From: a virus
Virus record (IMG/VR): IMGVR_UViG_3300032224_000782
Span: 1 to 64,000 of that record
Reading direction: 5' to 3' (one strand)
DNA: 64,000 nt
A program made the translations under genes and the position numbers. The notes under the pieces are model-generated. The model was not told the DNA's origin. It saw nothing but the letters and a program-made list of their open reading frames with translations, and searched no databases. This document shows, piece by piece, positions 3,733 through 57,122 of this stretch. Numbering within the stretch: position 1 is the first letter of the stretch; each line of letters opens with the position of its first letter.

Positions 3733-4146
3733 ATGGCAGTATTTACACGTACAAATGGTACAGCTTCAGCAGTTGTGAGCGTTGGTAACATCGCTCTAAG
3801 CACAGAAGCAACTAGCGCAAACGTATTGATCAGCACAGGTATTGGCAAGCCAGTACAAGCATTTGCTATCAACAGTAACGTTGCAATGACAGCAAACCTA
3901 GGAACAGGCGAAGCAGTAGAAACAATTCTACGTACTATCGGCATTAACAGCACATTGTTGGCTTACCAAGTTGGTACAGCAAACAACGGTTCTGTTACAA
4001 ACGGTCTATTGAGCGTAATGATTGAAGACAGCTCATGGAACACTACAGACCTACAAGCTAACATCCGTGCAGTTGGTACAGACAGCAATGGCTACAACTA
4101 CACAGGTATTGTTGTTACACAACCTGGCTTGCGTCTAGCAGAATAA
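3733..4146 (+). CDS. Probable virion surface or decoration protein
   Basis: 137 residues, rich in Ala, Thr, Ser, Asn and Val with almost no Lys and no Cys. This composition is typical of beta-rich phage structural proteins. It is a single-gene transcription unit, with a late-type promoter and AAAAGGA ribosome site upstream and a strong terminator directly downstream, which suggests a highly made product. No family recognised; a decoration, fibritin-like or tail protein are all possible. Confidence 0.55.
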   Translation: MAVFTRTNGTASAVVSVGNIALSTEATSANVLISTGIGKPVQAFAINSNVAMTANLGTGEAVETILRTIGINSTLLAYQVGTANNGSVTNGLLSVMIEDSSWNTTDLQANIRAVGTDSNGYNYTGIVVTQPGLRLAE

Positions 4147-28337: not shown

Positions 28338-28372
28338 CTGTAACAAAACTGTAACGGTCTTCTGCGTAAATA
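28338..28372 (+). promoter_or_regulatory. PhoB-type promoter of plcP
   Basis: Two perfect CTGTAAC repeats (28338-28344, 28349-28355) with 4-bp spacing, i.e. 11-bp phase, then 11 bp, then TAAATA (28367-28372) as the -10. This matches the E. coli pho box layout in which the box replaces the -35. The ATG follows 4 bases after the -10, so the mRNA is nearly or fully leaderless. Confidence 0.8.
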
Positions 28373-28376
28373 CTAT

Positions 28377-29261
28377 ATGCAGAAGACCTATCGCAGTATC
28401 TTCATCAGTGATGTTCATCTTGGCACTAAGGATAGCCAAGCTGAAAAACTCAATAACTTCCTTAAACACAATACTTGCGAAACATTGTATCTTGTAGGAG
28501 ATATTATCGATGCTTGGAAAATCAAACAAAACAAATGGCGCTGGAAACAAAGTCACACTAACGTCATTCGCCGTGTGCTGGGTCATAGCAAACGCGGTAC
28601 TCGTGTTGTATATGTGGCTGGTAATCACGACGAGTTTCTAAGACCATTCATGCATTATGATATTGGCTTTGGTATGATCGAAGTCACTAATCAAATCGAA
28701 CACATAGGTGCTGACGGCAAACATTATCTTGTGGTGCATGGAGATATGTTTGATGGTATCACCAGACTGGCGCCATGGCTAACAATGTTGGGAGATAAAG
28801 CCTATGATTTTATACTCAGCCTCAATACTAGAATTAATTGGATTCGTCATCGTATGGGTTTTGGGTACTTTAGCCTTAGCCTGTTTCTTAAGCATCGTGT
28901 TAAAAAAGCTGTAGATTTTATATTTCATTTTGAACGTAATCTATCCGCATATTGTAAAAAGCGTGGGTTTGATGGTGTTATCTGCGGACACATACACCAC
29001 GCAGAAATCAAAGACATAGACGGTGTAGTATATATGAACGACGGTGACTGGGTTGAGTCGTGTACAGCATTAGTAGAGCATCACGATGGGCATTGGGAAA
29101 TCATAACTTGGACACAGGAGAAAGACGATGTGGTTGATGATATTGATAGCGGTACACGTGAACAATCCAAAAGATCAACCCGGAAGAGTGGAACTGCTGT
29201 TCAACGACCAAAGGACCTGCGAACAAGCATTGTCGACAATGAAGTACGAATTAAAATTTAA
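28377..29261 (+). CDS. plcP: PlcP-like metallophosphoesterase (phospholipase C, LpxH-related)
   Basis: 294 residues. Calcineurin-type metal sites: SDVHLG 11-16, GDIID 41-45, GNHDE 82-86, HGD 121-123, GHIHH 204-208. This is the LpxH/UDP-diacylglucosamine hydrolase-like branch that includes PlcP, which removes the phosphate head group of phospholipids to give diacylglycerol during phosphate starvation. A PhoB-type promoter, the adjoining glycosyltransferase and nearby pstS favour PlcP over LpxH. The last 45 residues are a charged, non-conserved tail. Confidence 0.78.
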   Translation: MQKTYRSIFISDVHLGTKDSQAEKLNNFLKHNTCETLYLVGDIIDAWKIKQNKWRWKQSHTNVIRRVLGHSKRGTRVVYVAGNHDEFLRPFMHYDIGFGMIEVTNQIEHIGADGKHYLVVHGDMFDGITRLAPWLTMLGDKAYDFILSLNTRINWIRHRMGFGYFSLSLFLKHRVKKAVDFIFHFERNLSAYCKKRGFDGVICGHIHHAEIKDIDGVVYMNDGDWVESCTALVEHHDGHWEIITWTQEKDDVVDDIDSGTREQSKRSTRKSGTAVQRPKDLRTSIVDNEVRIKI

Positions 29262-29282
29262 AAGTTTTCGAGTAGAGGGAGT

Positions 29283-30287
29283 ATGTCAAAAACAATCCTA
29301 ATCATCACAGATAATTTACCGGATCAAATAAATGGCGTTGTCACAACATATAAAAACATTGAGATTTGTGCGACTCGTGACAATTATAACGTTGTGGTGC
29401 TTCATCCCGGGTGGTTCAGCTACATTGATTGCCCTGGCTACAACGAAGTCAAGATTGCCTATCCCCGGGCGTTGGGCAAGAAGGTTGCGGAGATCAATCC
29501 GGATCATATCCATATCGCCACAGAGGGTCCTCTTGGTCTGTGGGCTAGAAAGTATCTTTCATTATGTGATTATCGCTATAATACCGCTTATCATACTAAG
29601 TTTCCTGAAGGGCTAAACAAACTATTTGGCATACCAGAAGGAATAACATGGAGATTTGTGCGTTGGTTTCATAAACATAGCGGCAAAGTATTGACAACTA
29701 CTGATAGCATGGTATCTGAATTGCAAGCACGTGGATTTGACGGGGAAGTAATTTCATGGACACGTGGTGTTGATCGTGAGATATTTCATCCTATGCATAG
29801 AGTGGAAACGACTAGCAAATATATTCTATGTGTTAGTCGTGTTAGCAAAGAAAAAAATTTAGAAGCATTTTTTGAATTAAACTACCCGGGATATTTAAAA
29901 ATTATGGTTGGGGATGGTCCCATGCTAGAAACTTATAAAAAGCAATACCCAGATGTTCATTTTACAGGATTTAAAACAGGCATAGAATTGGCACAATACT
30001 ATGCTAATGCTGAAGTGTTTGTATTTCCGTCACAGTGGGAGACCTTTGGTATTGTAATGATTGAGGCTATGGCCTGTGGCACTCCTGTGGCAGCATATCC
30101 TTGTCAAGGCCCTGAAGATGTAATCGACGAAGGCATAACTGGTTGTCTAAATACAGATTTAAAACAAGCAGTTACTGACTGTTTATTTTTACCTAGACAT
30201 CGAGTATGGGAAGGTAGTCAACGTTGGAGTTGGGATAGAGCTTGGGAAATATTTAGAGATAATCTTGTTCCTGTAACACTGCCGTAA
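29283..30287 (+). CDS. agt: Agt-like glycosyltransferase, GT4 family
   Basis: 334 residues, GT-B fold. NLPDQINGVVTTYKN at the start and the E-x7-E motif ETFGIVMIEAMACGTPVAAYP near 255-275 are typical of GT4 enzymes of the MgtA/Agt group that glycosylate diacylglycerol. It sits 21 bases after plcP with AGGGAG upstream, the same order as in bacteria that swap phospholipids for glycolipids when phosphate is scarce. The next gene's Pho box lies in its last codons. Confidence 0.78.
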   Translation: MSKTILIITDNLPDQINGVVTTYKNIEICATRDNYNVVVLHPGWFSYIDCPGYNEVKIAYPRALGKKVAEINPDHIHIATEGPLGLWARKYLSLCDYRYNTAYHTKFPEGLNKLFGIPEGITWRFVRWFHKHSGKVLTTTDSMVSELQARGFDGEVISWTRGVDREIFHPMHRVETTSKYILCVSRVSKEKNLEAFFELNYPGYLKIMVGDGPMLETYKKQYPDVHFTGFKTGIELAQYYANAEVFVFPSQWETFGIVMIEAMACGTPVAAYPCQGPEDVIDEGITGCLNTDLKQAVTDCLFLPRHRVWEGSQRWSWDRAWEIFRDNLVPVTLP

Positions 30288-30305
30288 CACTTTTATATCT
30301 AAATA
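30271..30305 (+). promoter_or_regulatory. PhoB-type promoter of the Ala/Val-rich gene
   Basis: CTGTAAC (30271-30277) and CCGTAAC (30282-30288), 11-bp phase, then 11 bp, then TAAATA (30300-30305). It overlaps the end of agt. Confidence 0.75.
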
Positions 30306-30310
30306 CTTAT

Positions 30311-30325
30311 GTACCACAGTGGTAC
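30311..30325 (+). promoter_or_regulatory. 5'-terminal palindromic stem-loop
   Basis: GTACCACAGTGGTAC, a perfect palindrome starting at the predicted +1 (6 nt after TAAATA). It begins the 43-base leader that ends in AAAAGGAG before ATG 30354. Confidence 0.6.
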
Positions 30326-30353
30326 ACACATTCAAACCCAAAAGGAGCATTTC

Positions 30354-31001
30354 ATGAGATTAGAAGACCTAGCCGCAAGATTAGTAGCTGTTGAAGCCAA
30401 GTTAGCAACACTAACTGGAACCGCAGTTAACACAGACAATGCCACAAGCATTGAAGAATTAGATGCAAGACTATCAGTAGTCGAAGTTCAAGTTGATCAA
30501 TTGATTGTTGAAAAAACTCAAAGCCACATCGACGCTATCGTTTATTCACCAGCTGACGAAGCACCAGTAGCAGTTGAAGATGTAGTTTCACTATCACCAA
30601 GCTCCGACATCCCCGAAGCTGCCGCAATCGTTACGGATGTAGTAGCTGACCAACACGAATCAGATGCAATCGGTAATCCTGAAGTTGCTGATATGGTTAC
30701 AGCCGCTGTTGTCGCAGTTGTTACAGCAGAGCCACAAACTGTATTAGATCCAGTAGCATTGACAGCCGCTATTGTAGAAGCAGTTGCTGATATGCCAACT
30801 CCTGCACCTGAAGCTGTAGAACAAGTTGTTGCCGCAGTCGCTGATGTTATCGCTACAGCAACAGGTGTCGATGTAGTTACTCCTGAAGTACAACAACAAA
30901 TTGCAGAAGCGGTTGCTATGCCTGCTGACCCACGTTTAGATGTTATTGAACAACGTTTAGATATTGCAGAAGCAAAGGTTGACAGCCTATTGGGAAAGTA
31001 A
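30354..31001 (+). CDS. Ala/Val/Glu-rich helical protein under Pho control
   Basis: 215 residues from ATG 30354 with AAAAGGAG; an in-frame ATG at 30309 lies upstream of the predicted mRNA start. N-terminal coiled coil (LEDLAARLVAVEAKLATL, LDARLSVVEVQVDQL), a long Ala/Val/Pro/Asp-rich middle with repeats of VVAAVADV / AVVAVVTAE type, then a second coiled coil (RLDVIEQRLDIAEAKVDSL). Acidic, no Cys. Ends with coils matching each other, so a rod or trimer is likely. Function unknown; the Pho box ties it to phosphate stress. Confidence 0.7.
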   Translation: MRLEDLAARLVAVEAKLATLTGTAVNTDNATSIEELDARLSVVEVQVDQLIVEKTQSHIDAIVYSPADEAPVAVEDVVSLSPSSDIPEAAAIVTDVVADQHESDAIGNPEVADMVTAAVVAVVTAEPQTVLDPVALTAAIVEAVADMPTPAPEAVEQVVAAVADVIATATGVDVVTPEVQQQIAEAVAMPADPRLDVIEQRLDIAEAKVDSLLGK

Positions 31002-31044
31002 TATTTGTCTTTCAAAAATGGTTTAGAAAGTTTATCTGATCCAA

Positions 31045-31068
31045 AAAAGCCCTTCGGGGCTTTTCTAT
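31045..31068 (+). terminator. Rho-independent terminator, UUCG loop
   Basis: AAAAGCCC / GGGCTTTT stem closed by TTCG, then TCTAT. Separates the Ala/Val-rich gene from pstS. Confidence 0.85.
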
Positions 31069-31103
31069 ATGTAATATTACTGTAACAGAATTGCAATTAA
31101 ATA
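31069..31103 (+). promoter_or_regulatory. PhoB-type promoter of pstS
   Basis: ATGTAAT (31069-31075) and CTGTAAC (31080-31086), 11-bp phase, then 11 bp, then TAAATA (31098-31103). Same geometry as the two upstream Pho promoters; the first repeat is weaker (5 of 7). Confidence 0.7.
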
Positions 31104-33364: not shown

Positions 33365-33413
33365 TAGTTAAATCGACCACAACGATTGAGTGGCGCTGGA
33401 ACTCGTAACCAGC

Positions 33414-33436
33414 AAAGGACCTTAGGGTCCTTTTTT
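33414..33436 (+). terminator. Rho-independent terminator of the porin gene
   Basis: AAAGGACC / GGTCCTTT stem with TTAG loop and T-run. The stop codon of the convergent minus-strand gene lies in the T-run. Confidence 0.87.
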
Positions 33437-34649: not shown

Positions 34650-35891
34650 ATGAAAAAAATTGGATTTATTGGTATCGGTAAACTAGGCCTAGACTGTGCC
34701 GAAGTAATGGCAGAAAAACATGAAGTCAGAGGCTATGATATTTACCCACGCACTAGCGACACGGTAAAGGTTTGTGGTATTGAAGAATTAGTTAATGAAA
34801 GTGAATGGATTTTTATTGCTGTTCCTACACCACACGCAGAAGGTTATGATGGTAGTGTTCCTAGCAGTCACATGGAACCCAAAGACTTTGGTCACGATGC
34901 TGTTATTGATGCACTTAACAAAGTTAATCAATACGCAACTACAAGCAAGAAGGTTGTGTTGATCAGTACAGTATTACCAGGCACAACACGTCGCAAGTTT
35001 ATTACACTACTAGACCCAAAACATCAATTCTTGTACAACCCTTACTTGATTGCCATGGGATCAGTTAAATGGGACATGGCCAATCCTGAGATGGTTATCA
35101 TTGGTACTGAAGATGGTAGCTTAACAGGCGTTGCAGGCGAATTGATTGACTTGTACAAAACAATGATGCAAAACGATCCACGTTACGAAGTTGGCACATG
35201 GGACGAATGTGAAGCCATTAAAATCTTCTACAACACCTACATCAGTGCTAAAGTTGGTATTGTTAACATGATTCAAGACTTTGCAATGAAGATTGGTAAC
35301 ATTAATGTTGACGTTGTTACTAATGCATTGGCACGTAGTACTATGCGACTACAAGGACCCAAGTACATGACAGCTGGTATGGGTGATGCAGGTGCTTGCC
35401 ATCCACGTGACAACATTGCACTGCGTTGGTTAGCAGAACACTATGACATCGGCTATGATTTGTTTGACACTATCATGCATGCTAGAGAAGTACAAGCAAA
35501 AAATCTAGCATTGTTCTTAGTTGAACAAAGTCGTACACATGGTGGACTGCCTATTATCATTCATGGTAAAGCATACAAACCTGATGTTGAATACTGTATT
35601 GGTAGCTACAGTACACTGGTTGGCCACTATGTTAAAGAAGCAGGACACAAAGTCAGCTATGTTGATCCATTGGCAGACAGTCAAGACGAAGTTATTTCAG
35701 AAGTAACTACGCCAGCAATTTTCCTTTGGGCACACAATCGTAAAATTACTTACGAATATACCGGCGAACAATTAGACACAAAACCTTATTGTAATATTAT
35801 GCCAGGCAGCATTATTGTTGATCCATGGCGTAAACTACAATCTGAAAATGGTGTTGAAGTTGTTCACTATGGCAACACAAGACATCAATAA
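34650..35891 (+). CDS. UDP-glucose/GDP-mannose 6-dehydrogenase-like enzyme
   Basis: 413 residues. FIGIGKLG is the NAD-binding GxGxxG start; VPTP, ISTVLPGTTR and YNPYLIAMGS follow the family order. The catalytic Cys250 lies in GDAGACHPRDN, and HGKAYKPDVEYCIGS is the C-terminal nucleotide-sugar domain. It would make a uronic-acid nucleotide sugar from the nucleotide hexose. It leads a four-gene operon (34650-38152) of modification enzymes. Confidence 0.85.
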   Translation: MKKIGFIGIGKLGLDCAEVMAEKHEVRGYDIYPRTSDTVKVCGIEELVNESEWIFIAVPTPHAEGYDGSVPSSHMEPKDFGHDAVIDALNKVNQYATTSKKVVLISTVLPGTTRRKFITLLDPKHQFLYNPYLIAMGSVKWDMANPEMVIIGTEDGSLTGVAGELIDLYKTMMQNDPRYEVGTWDECEAIKIFYNTYISAKVGIVNMIQDFAMKIGNINVDVVTNALARSTMRLQGPKYMTAGMGDAGACHPRDNIALRWLAEHYDIGYDLFDTIMHAREVQAKNLALFLVEQSRTHGGLPIIIHGKAYKPDVEYCIGSYSTLVGHYVKEAGHKVSYVDPLADSQDEVISEVTTPAIFLWAHNRKITYEYTGEQLDTKPYCNIMPGSIIVDPWRKLQSENGVEVVHYGNTRHQ

Positions 35892-36387
35892 GTCGCACAT
35901 TGATAAGTTCTGGGACGATGAGTTTAAGCAATTAGACTACGTCCGAGAACCTTTTAATGATCCTAGATATCTTGCACTATGGGCCACGCAGGGTTACACT
36001 GGTCCTTTTACTGGTGTAATGTGTGACATGAGACGGCCTCAACCCAGTTGGAACAATAAGTTTATTGAATTTTTTGAACAGCGTGGTTGGAAGGACATCG
36101 GCACAAGTTACTATAGAATGGATACGAATGTAATTTTACCTGTACATCGAGACTTGTATGTCAAATACGTAGATTTATTTAAGCTACAAGGACAGGAATT
36201 TTGGATACGTAGAGCTATAGTATTCCTTGAGGATTGGAGTAGTGGACATTACTTTGAAATCAATGGCGAGCCTTGGCTTAATTGGCGAGCAGGCGACTTT
36301 GTTGAATGGCGTTATGATGCTCCACACATGGCTGCAAACATTGGCTTATTGCCTAGATATACCTTGCAAATAACCGGACATATATGA
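35869..36387 (+). CDS. 2OG-Fe(II)/AspH-like oxygenase
   Basis: 172 residues from ATG 35869, overlapping the dehydrogenase stop by 23 bases. LPVHRDLYVKYV supplies H-x-D, PHMAANIG the distal His, and PRYTLQITG the 2OG-binding Arg. Fits a small double-stranded beta-helix oxygenase. Substrate unknown; the setting suggests a sugar or amino-acid side chain. Confidence 0.6.
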   Translation: MATQDINKSHIDKFWDDEFKQLDYVREPFNDPRYLALWATQGYTGPFTGVMCDMRRPQPSWNNKFIEFFEQRGWKDIGTSYYRMDTNVILPVHRDLYVKYVDLFKLQGQEFWIRRAIVFLEDWSSGHYFEINGEPWLNWRAGDFVEWRYDAPHMAANIGLLPRYTLQITGHI

Positions 36388-37403
36388 AAATATCAAGTCG
36401 TAATGAATATGACAAACTAAAGACCTGTGTAGTGGGAGATGCTACTGGTGCTAGGTTTCCTGAGAGAGATGAAATCTTTTTATACAATCACGAAGTTACG
36501 AACTGGAAGGAAACTCCTCATCCACAAGGACGCTTTCCACAGCACGTAATTGATGAAGCTAATGAGGATCTTGAAGAACTTTGCGATACTCTAAGAGCAT
36601 TTGGCACAAGGGTGTTGCGTCCCAAGGACTTGGATCATAGTCACATTGTTAAAACACATGAATGGGAAACAGATGGCATGTACAACTATTGCCCCCGTGA
36701 TGTGTTGTTGGTCATAGACGACTTAGTTATAGAAGCGCCTATGACTTATCGTGCAAGGCAAATGGAGTCTAATGCGTATTGGAAAATCAAACAAGATGCA
36801 TTAGAAGATGATGTTCGTTGGATTGCTGCTCCCAGACCTAGATTGCTAACACATGAAAATTATATTGAAGATAACAATGTAGTGTTGTCGGACAAAGAGC
36901 CTATATTTGATGCGGCTAATATATTAAGACATAACAACGATATTCTATATCTTGTCAGTAACACAGGCAATAGACTGGGCGGACGTTGGTTACAAAACAT
37001 ATTAGGTAAACAATATCGAGTACATGTCTTAGATGACCTCTATGCATATGCACACATAGATAGTACAATAAGCGTGTTACGTGATGGCCTTGTGGTGTTA
37101 AACGCTAGTAGAGTCAATGCTTATAACTGCCCTACAATTTTTAACGGTTGGGAAAAGATTTGGGTTGAAGATGTTGTACCGCAAAATTTTTATCAATACC
37201 CTTATGCCAGTAAATGGATTGCAATGAACATGTTTAGTTTAGATTCAGACACTGTGATAGTGGATAAGAATCAACGTGCGTTAATCAAGCAATTAGAACA
37301 ACATTCTATGACAGTTATCCCCCAAGAACTGCGTCATAGTCGCACTTTAGGCGGTGGTTTTCATTGTGTGACATTAGATTTATTAAGAGAACACAATAAA
37401 TAA
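36384..37403 (+). CDS. Amidinotransferase (glycine/inosamine type)
   Basis: 339 residues, the length of GATM-fold enzymes. N-terminal RNEYDKLKTCVVGD, an acidic-His site in AYAHIDSTISVL, and the C-terminal catalytic Cys328 in GGGFHCVTLD. These enzymes move the amidino group of arginine to an amine. With the dehydrogenase and oxygenase this could build a guanidino-sugar or modify a virion or cell-surface component. Four-base overlap with the preceding gene. Confidence 0.82.
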   Translation: MKISSRNEYDKLKTCVVGDATGARFPERDEIFLYNHEVTNWKETPHPQGRFPQHVIDEANEDLEELCDTLRAFGTRVLRPKDLDHSHIVKTHEWETDGMYNYCPRDVLLVIDDLVIEAPMTYRARQMESNAYWKIKQDALEDDVRWIAAPRPRLLTHENYIEDNNVVLSDKEPIFDAANILRHNNDILYLVSNTGNRLGGRWLQNILGKQYRVHVLDDLYAYAHIDSTISVLRDGLVVLNASRVNAYNCPTIFNGWEKIWVEDVVPQNFYQYPYASKWIAMNMFSLDSDTVIVDKNQRALIKQLEQHSMTVIPQELRHSRTLGGGFHCVTLDLLREHNK

Positions 37404-46059: not shown

Positions 46060-46079
46060 TTAAGCTAGTAGAATAAACT

Positions 46080-46114
46080 TGCCCCCGGGTTATAAATACC
46101 TTGGGGGCATTTTT
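46080..46114 (+). terminator. Terminator with a late promoter in its loop
   Basis: TGCCCCC (46080-46086) pairs with GGGGGCA (46103-46109), followed by TTTTT. The loop holds TATAAATA (46091-46098), a late promoter whose start would be near 46104, 11 bases before the SprT-like ATG. Confidence 0.75.
46091..46098 (+). promoter_or_regulatory. Late promoter TATAAATA inside the terminator
   Basis: Exact consensus. The leader to ATG 46115 would be about 11 bases (GGGGCATTTTT) without a usual ribosome site. Confidence 0.6.
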
Positions 46115-47510: not shown

Positions 47511-48101
47511 ATGCCAAACTTTGTACCAACAGTATTAGAAAAAACCAGTAACGGCGAACGTGCATATGACATTTATAGTCGACTACTAAAAGATAGAATT
47601 GTCATGTTGGACACAGATGTAAATGAACACAGTGCTAGTCTTGTGGTAGCACAGATGTTATTTTTAGAAAGTGAAAATCCAGATGCCGATATCCTATTTT
47701 ATATTAACAGCCCTGGTGGCGTTGTCACTGCTGGTATGGCAATTTATGATACTATGCAGTTTATTAGGCCAGATGTGTCCACTATAGTTATGGGACAGGC
47801 CTGTAGCATGGGGTCACTGTTAGCACAAGCAGGTGCAAAAGGTAAGCGATTACTTCTCCCTAATGCTAGACACATGATTCATCAACCGTCAGGTGGTGCT
47901 CGTGGACAAGCTACAGACATGTTGATCCAAGTTGAGGAAATTCTTGCTATGAAGAAAAACCTTACACAAATTTATGTTGACCATAATTCTGCAGGTAAGA
48001 CATTTGATGAATTATCTAATGACATGGAACGTGATTTCTTTATGTCAGCAGAGCAAGCGGTTGCTTACGGACTTGCAGATTCAATTGTACAAAAGAGATA
48101 A
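47511..48101 (+). CDS. clpP: ClpP protease subunit
   Basis: 196 residues, full length. Catalytic triad Ser99 (GQACSMGS), His124 ([10 protein letters not shown]) and Asp171 (NDMERD). Handle helix and [17 protein letters not shown] are conserved. The peptidase half of ClpAP/ClpXP; with phage clpS it could redirect host proteolysis, or work in prohead maturation. Its stop overlaps the radical SAM start. Confidence 0.96.
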
Positions 48102-49387
48102 TGACTTTTAAAGATAGTTTTTGTCCTAGCCCATGGTTTCACATGCGTGTTACTAACTCGGGCGACTATGACTACTGTAGGTGGCAAACTAAACACAGCG
48201 GGCAGAAAACTGAAAATATAAGAGATACTACGCCAAAAGACTTTTTTCAAAACAGCATGGCAAGTATTCGTATGCAAATGTTAGCGGGAGAAACTCCACT
48301 GGGCTGTGCTGATTGTTACTTGATGGACAAGCATAATAAGGTCAGCGGAAGGCAAAAACAACTCTTAAAGACTGGCGTTAGATTAGAATACTTTGACAAA
48401 AGTATGCTGACCAGTGCTTGGTCCAGTGAGTACAAAAATTCCTATGACCAACAAGGTATAGTTGATTTGCTACCACAGGATTGGCAAATTGACTTAGGAA
48501 ATTTCTGCAATTCAGCGTGTTTGTTTTGTCACAGTAACTATAGTTCAAGTCTAGCAGTGGAATGGAAAAAACTAGGATTACTGCAAACAATGCCTGCTAG
48601 AAATTGGTGTGATGACGATAAAACTCTACAAGTATTTTTAGACACTTTGCTGTGTTCTAAGAAACTCAGCTACTTGCATTTTATTGGCGGAGAAACATTA
48701 ATAACTCCGGCATTTAAGAAAATATTAAAAGAACTGATCAAGGCAGGGCTAGCATCAGACGTTACCATAGGGTTTACTACTTCTTTAATAACATGGGATG
48801 AGTCCATTATAGACTTACTGGGAAATTTCAAACAAGTTAATTTAGGCATGAGTGTTGAGTGCCTACATCCTGTAAACGATTACGTAAGATATCCCAGTAA
48901 AATTGATCAAGTACAAGATACCATCAATCGTTGGATTGATATTGCCAACAGTCGCGGTTGGTTATTGCAAATTAGGACTACTCCTACTATACTAACAATC
49001 AGTCACTTACTAACAATATTTGAATTTGCTTACAGTAAAAATATTTCTGTGGAAAGTTGTAACTTCTTGGATCATCCTGCGTATATGAGACCAACTGTAT
49101 TGCCTCTTGACTATCGAGTAAAAATTATAGAATCTTTAGACAACTGGCTCAAAGATAAAACACAGTCTGTAGACACTGTAGTAAACACACGTGATCCTAA
49201 TAAAGCAAAATTACAAGTAGTACAAGATGCACAAAGCTATGTAAACTATTTAAAAAATCAAGGCGACGAATCGCACATGCTTCCAGAATTAATTAACTAT
49301 CTTAAAATAATGGAAAGCAATAGGAAAAACACAGTATTAGATTACCTACCAGAATATGAACAACTATTTAGAGCTGCTGGATACTGA
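48101..49387 (+). CDS. Twitch-type radical SAM enzyme
   Basis: 428 residues. Cys136-x3-Cys140-x2-Cys143 (CNSACLFC) binds the [4Fe-4S]-SAM cluster; FIGGETL is the second core motif. The N-terminus (CPSPWFHMRVTNSGDYDYCRW) and CADC near 88-91 resemble the auxiliary cluster region of SPASM/Twitch enzymes. Reaction unknown. The phage IscU/IscA could supply its cluster. Overlaps clpP by one base and the next gene by 32. Confidence 0.85.
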   Translation: MTFKDSFCPSPWFHMRVTNSGDYDYCRWQTKHSGQKTENIRDTTPKDFFQNSMASIRMQMLAGETPLGCADCYLMDKHNKVSGRQKQLLKTGVRLEYFDKSMLTSAWSSEYKNSYDQQGIVDLLPQDWQIDLGNFCNSACLFCHSNYSSSLAVEWKKLGLLQTMPARNWCDDDKTLQVFLDTLLCSKKLSYLHFIGGETLITPAFKKILKELIKAGLASDVTIGFTTSLITWDESIIDLLGNFKQVNLGMSVECLHPVNDYVRYPSKIDQVQDTINRWIDIANSRGWLLQIRTTPTILTISHLLTIFEFAYSKNISVESCNFLDHPAYMRPTVLPLDYRVKIIESLDNWLKDKTQSVDTVVNTRDPNKAKLQVVQDAQSYVNYLKNQGDESHMLPELINYLKIMESNRKNTVLDYLPEYEQLFRAAGY

Positions 49388-54916: not shown

Positions 54917-54923
54917 ATTGTCA

Positions 54924-54931
54924 CATAAATA
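54924..54931 (+). promoter_or_regulatory. Late-type promoter CATAAATA, leaderless geometry
   Basis: One mismatch to TATAAATA; ATG 54936 starts 5 nt after its last base. Confidence 0.55.
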
Positions 54932-54935
54932 TAAA

Positions 54936-57122
54936 ATGCGCTTTAAACAAATAAAAAAACTTATTGCTGAAGATGAGTTGATGGAAATCAACATGAGTCC
55001 CAGCAGTCTAAAAAAGTTAGCCAGTCAAATTGATGCTCTTGCTGGCATGGAATTTGAAATGGTTGTGCCTAATCTCAGTGGTGTTGATGACAGCGATCAA
55101 GAACCCGACTATGACTATGATGAACGTTGCCGTAGCATTGAAGATGCTGTGCAATTCTTTTACGATGGTGATTGGAACGGTCGTAGAGATGTTGAACGTC
55201 TACGTGAAAAAATGCAGAATGATTTCAGCGAATGGCTGGATGACAAAATCTATCAAGAATGGGAACGCCACGGCGAAGAGTACTTAGAAGAATGGGTGCC
55301 CAACAATGTGGACGAATCTGAGTGGAATCCTGAAGGTTTGGAAGGCGAAGAACGTCAGGAAGCACTAGAAGAATTCATTGCCAACCTGCATAGCAACCCC
55401 GGCAGCAGTGATGCGTTTGATGAGTACAGAGAAGAAAATCAAGAGTCATATGACGAAAGCGACTGGTTGGATGATGAAGACCTAGACCGCATGAGCAGCA
55501 TTGAAAACACATACTCAATGACTTGGCCACATTGGCGTAATGTTGGTAATGGCGAAGCTAGCATTGAAGATGTTGCTAACAGTTTTAGAGACGCAGTGGG
55601 CCGCCCAATACTAGCCAGCACCAGTTATCACAGCAGCCGAGTTGAACGCCCCAGCACCAAAAACTTAGAATACATTGTGGAACCTGACAGCAGTATTAAT
55701 GTCGACGACGAAAGCAATGAAGGCGGATTAGAGTTTGTATCACCACCGTTGCCTATTGCAGATATGATGAGTGATCTTGACAAGGTTAAAAAATGGGCCG
55801 ACCGTAATGGTTGTTATACCAACGACTCAACGGGCCTACACATTAATGTCAGTGTCCCTGGTTTTGATATTAACAAACTCGACTATGTTAAACTAGCATT
55901 GTTGTTAGGCGATAATCACATATTAGAAGTATTTGGTAGAACTGGCAATACTTATTGCAAGAGTGCTATAGAAAAAGTCAAAAGCCGTGTTAAACAAAAT
56001 CCCGACACCGCAGAACATTTATTGAATCAAATGCGTAATCATATGGATCAATTAGCCACTAAAGCTATTCATTCAGGTGTAACAGACAAATATACAAGTA
56101 TCAATACTAAAACTGGACACATTGAATTTAGAAGTCCTGGTGGCGATTGGTTAAAAAAATTAGACGAAGGCGACGAAATTCAACAAACACTATTGCGTTT
56201 TGTTGTGGCTATGGATGCTGCAATGAAACCTGAGTTATATCGTGAAGAATACTTAAAGAAACTTTACAAACTATTAGATGTTACAAGTAATCAAGACCCA
56301 TTATGGTATTTTGTAAAATATTCGGCAGGCGGATTTTCGCCAACGGTTCTAAAGAGTTTTATTCGTCAGACACAATTAGAACGTGATGTTAAACGTGGCA
56401 AAGAAAAAGAAAAATCACAAGATGATTTGACGCCTTTTGAAATTTACAATAGAGACTCTAACGCAGTTGTGTCAACGGTCTTGGCTCGCAATGCTCAAGA
56501 AGCGTTGGCAGAATTGGATCAATTCCGGGCGGAGCAAGTTAGAGCACAAGGCATAACAGTGGATCAGGCCACCGCAACGTACGGTATACGTCATGCTCCT
56601 ATTCCTGGAAGCACTATAGACCTACAGCGTCAGCGAGCAGCCGCCGCATCAAACACAGAACCACACCCCGAAGGTCGTGGTCGTCCCAACGATCCCACAG
56701 GACGCTATGCTATTGTAATGCGTAACGACGAGGCAGTGCATGGTCGTAGCGGGCAAGCACCCAACTATCAGTTTAGATTTAACATGTCAAATCTGGAACA
56801 ACAAGGACATGGACGCTATGTGCTACAGGCTTGGGCTGCAAGAAACAATGTGGATCCTGCCAATTATATGATTGTTGATACTACTCAATATGCTGATGCC
56901 AATCAAATCCCCACCGTTGACATTGACATTGAACCAGCACCACAACAACCAGGCATGGGAGAGTTCAACGGACAATGGCGAGTTGTTGATGGCTTAGGTA
57001 GAGAAGTATATCGGTTCGGCGGTGTAGGCAATAGTCAAGCAGATGCCAACAGAATAGCCGCAACATGGGCAAGGACCACCGGCTTCGACGGTAACATCGA
57101 GGTTTACCCTGTGATGGCGTAA
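54936..57122 (+). CDS. Amidoligase-like protein 1 with capsid-targeting-like N-terminus
   Basis: 728 residues from ATG 54936; six upstream in-frame codons would lie before the predicted mRNA start. MRFKQIKKLIAEDEL contains L-I-A-E, as in the T4 IPIII targeting sequence. GMEFEM (37-42), EPDSS (249-253), GLEFVSPPLP and TGLHINVS (299-306) are the ordered motifs of the amidoligase (ATP-grasp-like COOH-NH2 ligase) family. After 500 the protein is a different domain ending in a WRVVDGLGREVYRF repeat-like module. Substrate unknown. Confidence 0.75.
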   Translation: MRFKQIKKLIAEDELMEINMSPSSLKKLASQIDALAGMEFEMVVPNLSGVDDSDQEPDYDYDERCRSIEDAVQFFYDGDWNGRRDVERLREKMQNDFSEWLDDKIYQEWERHGEEYLEEWVPNNVDESEWNPEGLEGEERQEALEEFIANLHSNPGSSDAFDEYREENQESYDESDWLDDEDLDRMSSIENTYSMTWPHWRNVGNGEASIEDVANSFRDAVGRPILASTSYHSSRVERPSTKNLEYIVEPDSSINVDDESNEGGLEFVSPPLPIADMMSDLDKVKKWADRNGCYTNDSTGLHINVSVPGFDINKLDYVKLALLLGDNHILEVFGRTGNTYCKSAIEKVKSRVKQNPDTAEHLLNQMRNHMDQLATKAIHSGVTDKYTSINTKTGHIEFRSPGGDWLKKLDEGDEIQQTLLRFVVAMDAAMKPELYREEYLKKLYKLLDVTSNQDPLWYFVKYSAGGFSPTVLKSFIRQTQLERDVKRGKEKEKSQDDLTPFEIYNRDSNAVVSTVLARNAQEALAELDQFRAEQVRAQGITVDQATATYGIRHAPIPGSTIDLQRQRAAAASNTEPHPEGRGRPNDPTGRYAIVMRNDEAVHGRSGQAPNYQFRFNMSNLEQQGHGRYVLQAWAARNNVDPANYMIVDTTQYADANQIPTVDIDIEPAPQQPGMGEFNGQWRVVDGLGREVYRFGGVGNSQADANRIAATWARTTGFDGNIEVYPVMA

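Follow-up and report, generated by a model that had tools for sequence, protein, structure and literature searches.

In a 64-kb stretch of DNA from a freshwater bacterial virus (the window, taken from a 65,194-base metagenomic virus record), three sites place a putative PhoB box of the host type exactly 11 bp ahead of the hexamer TAAATA (Table 1). We consider it rather probable, judging from sequence and comparison, that these are hybrid promoters in which a host PhoB box at its usual position is combined with a late-type -10 element of the phage. Each box is made of two 7-bp direct repeats in 11-bp phase, with a consensus like CTGTAAC/CTGTCAT, which is the repeat arrangement of the Pho regulon; PhoB binding is putative. 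A preliminary description had placed the repeats at 28338/28349, 30271/30282 and 31069/31080 with 11 bp between the second repeat and TAAATA. These coordinates are exact and the gap holds at all three sites, with the correction that box 2 shares bases with the stop codon of agt, the gene ahead of it.

The sites are the only matches of at least 13/14 to the Pho half-site on either strand of the window, where 0.38 is expected per dinucleotide-matched window. Pairs of the form [TC]GTAA-N6-[TC]GTAA number three against 0.9 expected. The enrichment over shuffled sequence on which the earlier reading depended is clear when TAAATA is included, since all three pairs carry it at the 11-bp gap and none of 200 simulated windows contained even one such composite site.

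Table 1. Predicted features of the phosphate-related block, in window coordinates
Feature	Position	Strand	Basis
Putative Pho box 1, CTGTAAC-AAAA-CTGTAAC	28338..28355	+	sequence; kept upstream of plcP in relatives
Inverted repeat GGTCTTCTGC (28356-28365)/GCAGAAGACC (28379-28388), TAAATA in loop, start codon at edge of 3' arm	28356..28388	+	sequence; cross-locus pairing test
Predicted TAAATA promoter 1, late-type -10 core, 11 bp past box, ATG 4 nt on	28367..28372	+	
plcP-like metallophosphoesterase, 294 aa, predicted near-leaderless	28377..29261	+	Pfam Metallophos
agt-like GT4 glycosyltransferase, 334 aa	29283..30287	+	Pfam Glycos_transf_1
Putative Pho box 2, CTGTAAC-ACTG-CCGTAAC	30271..30288	+	same site in L046, L028
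Predicted TAAATA promoter 2	30300..30305	+	sequence
Palindrome TGTACCACAGTGGTACA at predicted 5' end of transcript 2	30310..30326	+	sequence
Val/Ala-rich ORF (MRLEDLAARL...), SD AAGGAG upstream	30354..31001	+	homologues in L016, L019, L046, L061, L065
Intrinsic terminator AAAAGCCC-TTCG-GGGCTTTT, separating pstS from upstream unit	31044..31065	+	sequence
Putative Pho box 3, ATGTAAT-ATTA-CTGTAAC	31069..31086	+	sequence
Predicted TAAATA promoter 3	31098..31103	+	sequence
pstS, phosphate-binding protein, 339 aa	31126..32145	+	NCBIfam PRK10918, 428 bits (cut-off 339)
Porin (Porin_4), 383 aa	32213..33364	+	Pfam
Structured RNA, 47 nt, after porin stop, 3' end of pstS-porin unit	33366..33412	+	model R1, 70.6 bits, E 2.7e-18; covariation
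Intrinsic terminator past RNA element	33414..33436	+	sequence

The distance between box and hexamer is conserved far beyond the window. A search of IMG/VR for plcP matched at least 600 stretches; relatives are encoded in 598 of the 600 listed, and the best 80 loci were used. When distances of 4 to 30 bp were scanned in these 80 loci, 38 distinct sites had TAAATA at 11 bp, six at 21 bp and three at 22 bp, and no strong box had it at any other distance in that range. Because 11 bp and 21-22 bp lie one helical turn apart, the boxes would be on one face of the helix. The same distances emerged in the best 80 loci when, of the boxes upstream of plcP, the highest-scoring strong one was taken and TAAATA was not required: it was found at 11, 21 or 22 bp in 32 of 32 distinct cases, and behind these boxes a host-type -10 occurred in none.

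A gene-blind DNA-pattern scan of all 2.9 million IMG/VR viral contigs found the box-N11-TAAATA pattern in at least 120 stretches. The matches listed comprise 111 distinct sites, of which 54 precede pstS, 38 plcP, five a PiT-like gene and three the MRLEDL ORF, and about 90% lead into pstS, plcP or other Pho-type genes; these counts are approximate because gene classes were assigned via short sequence motifs. At control spacings the scan gave 18 matches (N12) and 11 matches (N14), and a Pho-type gene followed none of them. Together with plcP, agt and pstS in the window, the scan ties the predicted promoters to genes of phosphate starvation. Pho promoters with N10-TATAAT also occur in the viral collection (44 cases, of which about a dozen classified distinct sites precede pstS, plcP or PiT-like genes), and therefore both promoter designs exist in viral contigs. 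A protein of ~320 aa with the motif ANDSVQTLGT was considered as a PiT transporter, an assignment left unproven by a Pfam PHO4 E value of 0.93.

TAAATA itself appears, by its distribution, to be the phage's own core of the T4 late type. In G001, a 212-kb relative (the contig of L003), 37 of 109 TAAATA occurrences fall in non-coding DNA, which by our ORF calls is 3.4% of the genome, versus 145 of 2217 for other A4T2 hexamers (p 5e-16). Thirty-one of the G001 sites lie upstream of genes, which include virion and tail-fibre genes, and a Pho box accompanies only two; the hexamer thus recurs before virion genes across the genome, as T4 late promoters do. Late promoters read TATAAATA in T4 and NATAAATA in cyanophages (PMC2984593), and those of T4 are read by gp55 (PMC7892883). 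Compared with the T4 octamer, the last six bases are constant at the phage sites and the first two are variable. Upstream of T4 late promoters the sequence is normally not conserved (PMC7892883), whereas the Pho box is kept at the sites described here. The contigs of L013, L023 and L025 encode a gp55-like late sigma. Of 15 contigs sampled from the promoter scan, five do so too, among them each of the four that reach 200 kb or more. Searches of the 65-kb window record, of G001 and of several other large contigs found no such gene. A PF04542 sigma search was uninformative because it missed G525, which carries a gp55-like gene. We take the T4 late register to apply, which places TAAATA at -11 to -6, and the Pho box would then keep the distance to the start that sigma-70 Pho promoters have.

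PstS and the porin point to a single host order, probably Burkholderiales, and the window PstS is up to 68% identical to proteins of this likely order. In the host-order pstS promoters, the same type of box is followed by N10 and TATAGT, TATGAT, TAAACT, TAAAGT and similar hexamers (TANNNT). At that position, 10 bp past the box, the phage sequence is NTAAAT, with TAAATA one base further on, so the sigma-70 -10 of a typical Pho-regulon promoter is missing. Tracing the host through close plcP relatives was unsuccessful, as cellular matches reach only 46-58% identity and are mostly alphaproteobacterial or unplaced.

On the hybrid reading, the host PhoB box would occupy about -40 to -23 and TAAATA -11 to -6, and in a phosphate-starved infected cell PhoB-P would recruit or stabilise RNA polymerase at the sites. 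A phage sigma resembling gp55 would be the reader of TAAATA. Expression of plcP-agt, of the ORF at 30354 and of pstS-porin would be raised; plcP-agt would swap phospholipids for glycolipids and so free phosphate, and pstS-porin would serve phosphate uptake. More tentatively, and with the odds somewhat against it, PhoB may activate the polymerase carrying the gp55-like sigma directly, gating late transcription by the nutrient state of the host, in a regulon that also yields a structured, phage-encoded small RNA, 63-72 nt long, that is driven by PhoB and belongs to no known family. To our knowledge, direct PhoB activation of a gp55-type polymerase has no precedent. The reason lies in that polymerase: gp55 lacks the sigma region normally contacted by PhoB, and gp33 occupies the beta flap (PMC7892883). 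In one cyanophage, some predicted Pho boxes neither bound PhoB nor responded (PMC10976474).

The chief rival is a division of labour in time, to which we give a minor but appreciable chance. Early in infection, host sigma-70 with PhoB would start at the degenerate -10 NTAAAT, and later the phage sigma would use TAAATA without PhoB, so that a late promoter of the ordinary kind would gain, through the box, early expression under starvation. The distance from box to start equals that of sigma-70 Pho promoters, and overlapping early and late promoters have been described in T4-like cyanophages (PMC2984593). However, in NTAAAT the key A at -11 is missing, and in most cases the T at -12 as well, and the phages with host-type Pho promoters show a clean N10-TATAAT, so a better -10 was available yet was not selected.

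Less likely is a plain host Pho promoter in which TAAATA is this host's variant of the sigma-70 -10 and no phage sigma takes part, a reading we regard as improbable. This is close to the preliminary description, which had the PhoB box replacing the -35 and, as a conjecture, the block coming on in starved cells only. The sequence, phase and position of the box and the phosphate-starvation genes behind it bear that out, and the -10 preference of the host species is uncertain; the part that did not hold is TAAATA as an ordinary host -10. The hexamer is concentrated at Pho-free phage gene starts, virion genes included, and the pstS genes of the presumed host order use other -10 hexamers, at 10 bp, which disfavours TAAATA as the usual host -10. 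An account by host polymerase at a plain Pho promoter is therefore incomplete.

Binding of the boxes by another OmpR-family regulator or by a phage protein has little to recommend it: box specificity was judged by similarity, but the identical box type stands ahead of host-order pstS genes and, among the matches listed, the gene-blind search yields almost only phosphate genes. Chance or composition is already refuted, for although the region is rich in A and T and the window phage has many copies of TAAATA, the simulated windows gave no composite site, the fixed spacing is kept in over a hundred contigs, and conservation of the sites in relatives puts chance out of the question.

The genes behind the first predicted hybrid promoter fit a lipid-renovation pair, a PlcP-type metallophosphoesterase of the calcineurin type followed by a GT4 Agt, with activities predicted from sequence. 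The pair was named plcP-agt because, in the bacterial loci with the nearest cellular plcP relatives, a relative of agt lies near plcP in 13 of 17, mostly directly downstream; the window agt is 38-41% identical to the gene adjoining plcP in bacteria. In phosphate-starved bacteria plcP-agt is the lipid-renovation pair, plcP clusters bear Pho boxes and glycolipids are the products of Agt (PMC4796936). An LpxH identity for the first gene was ruled out, as LpxH models scored 37-44 bits against cut-offs of 134-190. Phage plcP sequences are 75-88% identical among the phage loci kept and at most 58% identical to the cellular relatives found, and phage plcP-agt forms a distinct clade in these comparisons. 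Relatives of plcP occur in the annotated phages Pelagibacter phage Mosig and Synechococcus phage S-SRM01, where they are labelled UDP-2,3-diacylglucosamine hydrolase or diphosphatase. In Mosig, a phosphate ABC transporter gene adjoins the plcP relative in divergent orientation. Among the open-licence papers searched, none came up that describes plcP-agt in phages or Pho boxes on promoters of the late type.

Behind the second site, the ORF gave no matches in Pfam, PHROG or NCBIfam; it stands under the same promoter type in L146, L165 and L192. The porin is probably co-transcribed with pstS from the third. The window also encodes a phage replicative helicase and a class I ribonucleotide reductase.

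At distinct plcP sites in the best 80 loci, the ATG lies 4-8 nt past TAAATA, and therefore the plcP message should start at or beside the AUG. The arms flanking the promoter, a perfect 10-bp inverted repeat in the window, vary in sequence between phages while their complementarity persists. Across 55 distinct sites, arms of the same gene pair with a mean of -5.7 kcal/mol versus -4.0 +/- 0.28 kcal/mol with swapped partners (0 of 300 permutations). In T4, long RNAs of I-TevI, soc and e mask the translation start in a hairpin, and late RNAs that start inside the hairpin do not (PMC2988022). By analogy, in read-through RNA the plcP start region would fold into a hairpin with the promoter in its loop, and because the start would then be hidden, plcP would come for the most part from RNA started at its own regulated promoter.

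The block closes with a structured RNA element, found with a model (R1) that includes the window copy. Forty aligned copies share a covarying hairpin with 4/4 pairs changed on both sides; its covariation score is 0.334, versus 0.145 +/- 0.015 after shuffling and no more than 0.098 after sliding. A second hairpin is invariant, and in a pseudoknot the third pair varies while pairing is retained. No Rfam covariance model scored above its gathering threshold against the element. A gene-blind pattern scan gave 65 good copies, with nearest genes pstS in 20 (mostly 27-81 nt upstream), agt in 13 (mostly about 29 nt upstream) and plcP in 10 (24-95 nt downstream), and 20 without such a gene in reach. 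In six loci a box-N11-TAAATA promoter stands directly ahead of the element, in most of them with a terminator after it; folding of four of the loci predicts a small RNA 63-72 nt in length, and L028, L291, L306 and L350 carry predicted stand-alone copies. One of 300 bacterial genomes has a copy, beside tRNA genes. As a guess, the element could be a small RNA or a 3'-end element of the phosphate regulon.

Several known systems share parts of this design. With E. coli-type Pho promoters the sites have in common the two 7-bp repeats, the 11-bp phase and the distance to the predicted start, but those promoters have TANNNT at 10 bp and the phage sites TAAATA at 11 bp. They resemble T4-type late promoters (TATAAATA, gp55) in having the TAAATA core in register, in its occurrence before virion genes and in the gp55-like sigma of many relatives, but differ in that the first two bases are unconserved and a conserved activator box stands where T4 has none. 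As in the hairpin-gated late genes of T4 (PMC2988022), the loop that holds the promoter belongs to a hairpin predicted to mask the start only in longer transcripts, whereas here the message would be near-leaderless and the promoter carries a Pho box. The plcP-agt operon of SAR11 and other bacteria (PMC4796936) matches in its two genes, in their order and in control by Pho (predicted here), but the present genes are phage-borne and of a distinct clade. The PhoBR-controlled genes of cyanophages (pstS of P-SSM2; S-PM2d, PMC10976474) likewise put phosphate-stress genes of a phage under host PhoB, as predicted here, but with cyanobacterial-type boxes at varying positions, and for cyanophage pstS there is "no single regulatory solution" (PMC3037559). 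In contrast, the present phages use one strict geometry, with an enterobacterial-type box and a late-type -10, that recurs with pstS, plcP-agt and other genes.

PhoB control of phage auxiliary genes has so far been a matter of marine cyanophages, in scattered forms. Here it would take the shape of a standard, strictly spaced promoter module, present in many phages, large ones included, joined to the phage's own late-type signal and governing predicted lipid renovation besides phosphate uptake. The linked RNA element may add a small RNA to the regulon. If the hybrid reading is true, the module would provide a sequence tag for mapping phosphate-responsive phages in metagenomes, and would raise the question of how a sigma-70 activator acts on a polymerase whose sigma may lack the usual contact region.

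A covarying RNA element of ~47 nt, represented in the window and in several other loci (see table), is linked to the phage genes pstS, agt and plcP and is often followed on its 3' side by a terminator. At some loci, judging from the sequence, a predicted Pho box-TAAATA promoter would directly drive the element. No Rfam family matched it.

Coordinates of the RNA element and of four genes in the window
Feature	Window	Other loci
Covarying RNA element, ~47 nt	33366-33412	L028:3555-3601; L291, L306, L350 and others
UDP-glucose dehydrogenase-like gene	34650-35891	
Dimethylargininase-like gene	36384-37403	
Radical SAM gene	48101-49387	
Amidoligase-like gene	54918-57122	

A bacterial chromosome (G264, locus L467) carries a copy of the element at 1501-1547 (51 bits), within a tRNA gene cluster. 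Cyanophage S-SRM01 (L101) gave weak matches to the RNA model at 2158-2193 and 3989-4032 (E 0.007 and 0.09), neighboured by split psbA genes and homing endonucleases.

The predicted hairpin-gated layout of the window plcP recurs at 46072-46112 without a Pho box: TATAAATA is flanked by the arms GCCCCC and GGGGGC, with an ATG just downstream. In the cultured Pelagibacter phage Mosig EXVC030M (L100, 4800-5040), a phosphate ABC transporter gene and a plcP-like gene, annotated as UDP-2,3-diacylglucosamine hydrolase, are divergent, and TAAATA lies 5 nt 5' of the plcP ATG.

Host-type Pho promoters (box-N10-TATAAT) are present in L425, L433, L440, L444, L446, L447, L457 and other viral contigs, where the downstream gene is pstS, plcP or PiT-like. 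Downstream of Pho box-TAAATA promoters we also observed genes for a membrane-like protein of about 320 aa with an ANDSVQTLGT motif (L151:2238-3236; similar in L155, L160, L202, L217 and L220). This protein is perhaps a phosphate transporter, its PHO4 match reaching only E 0.93.
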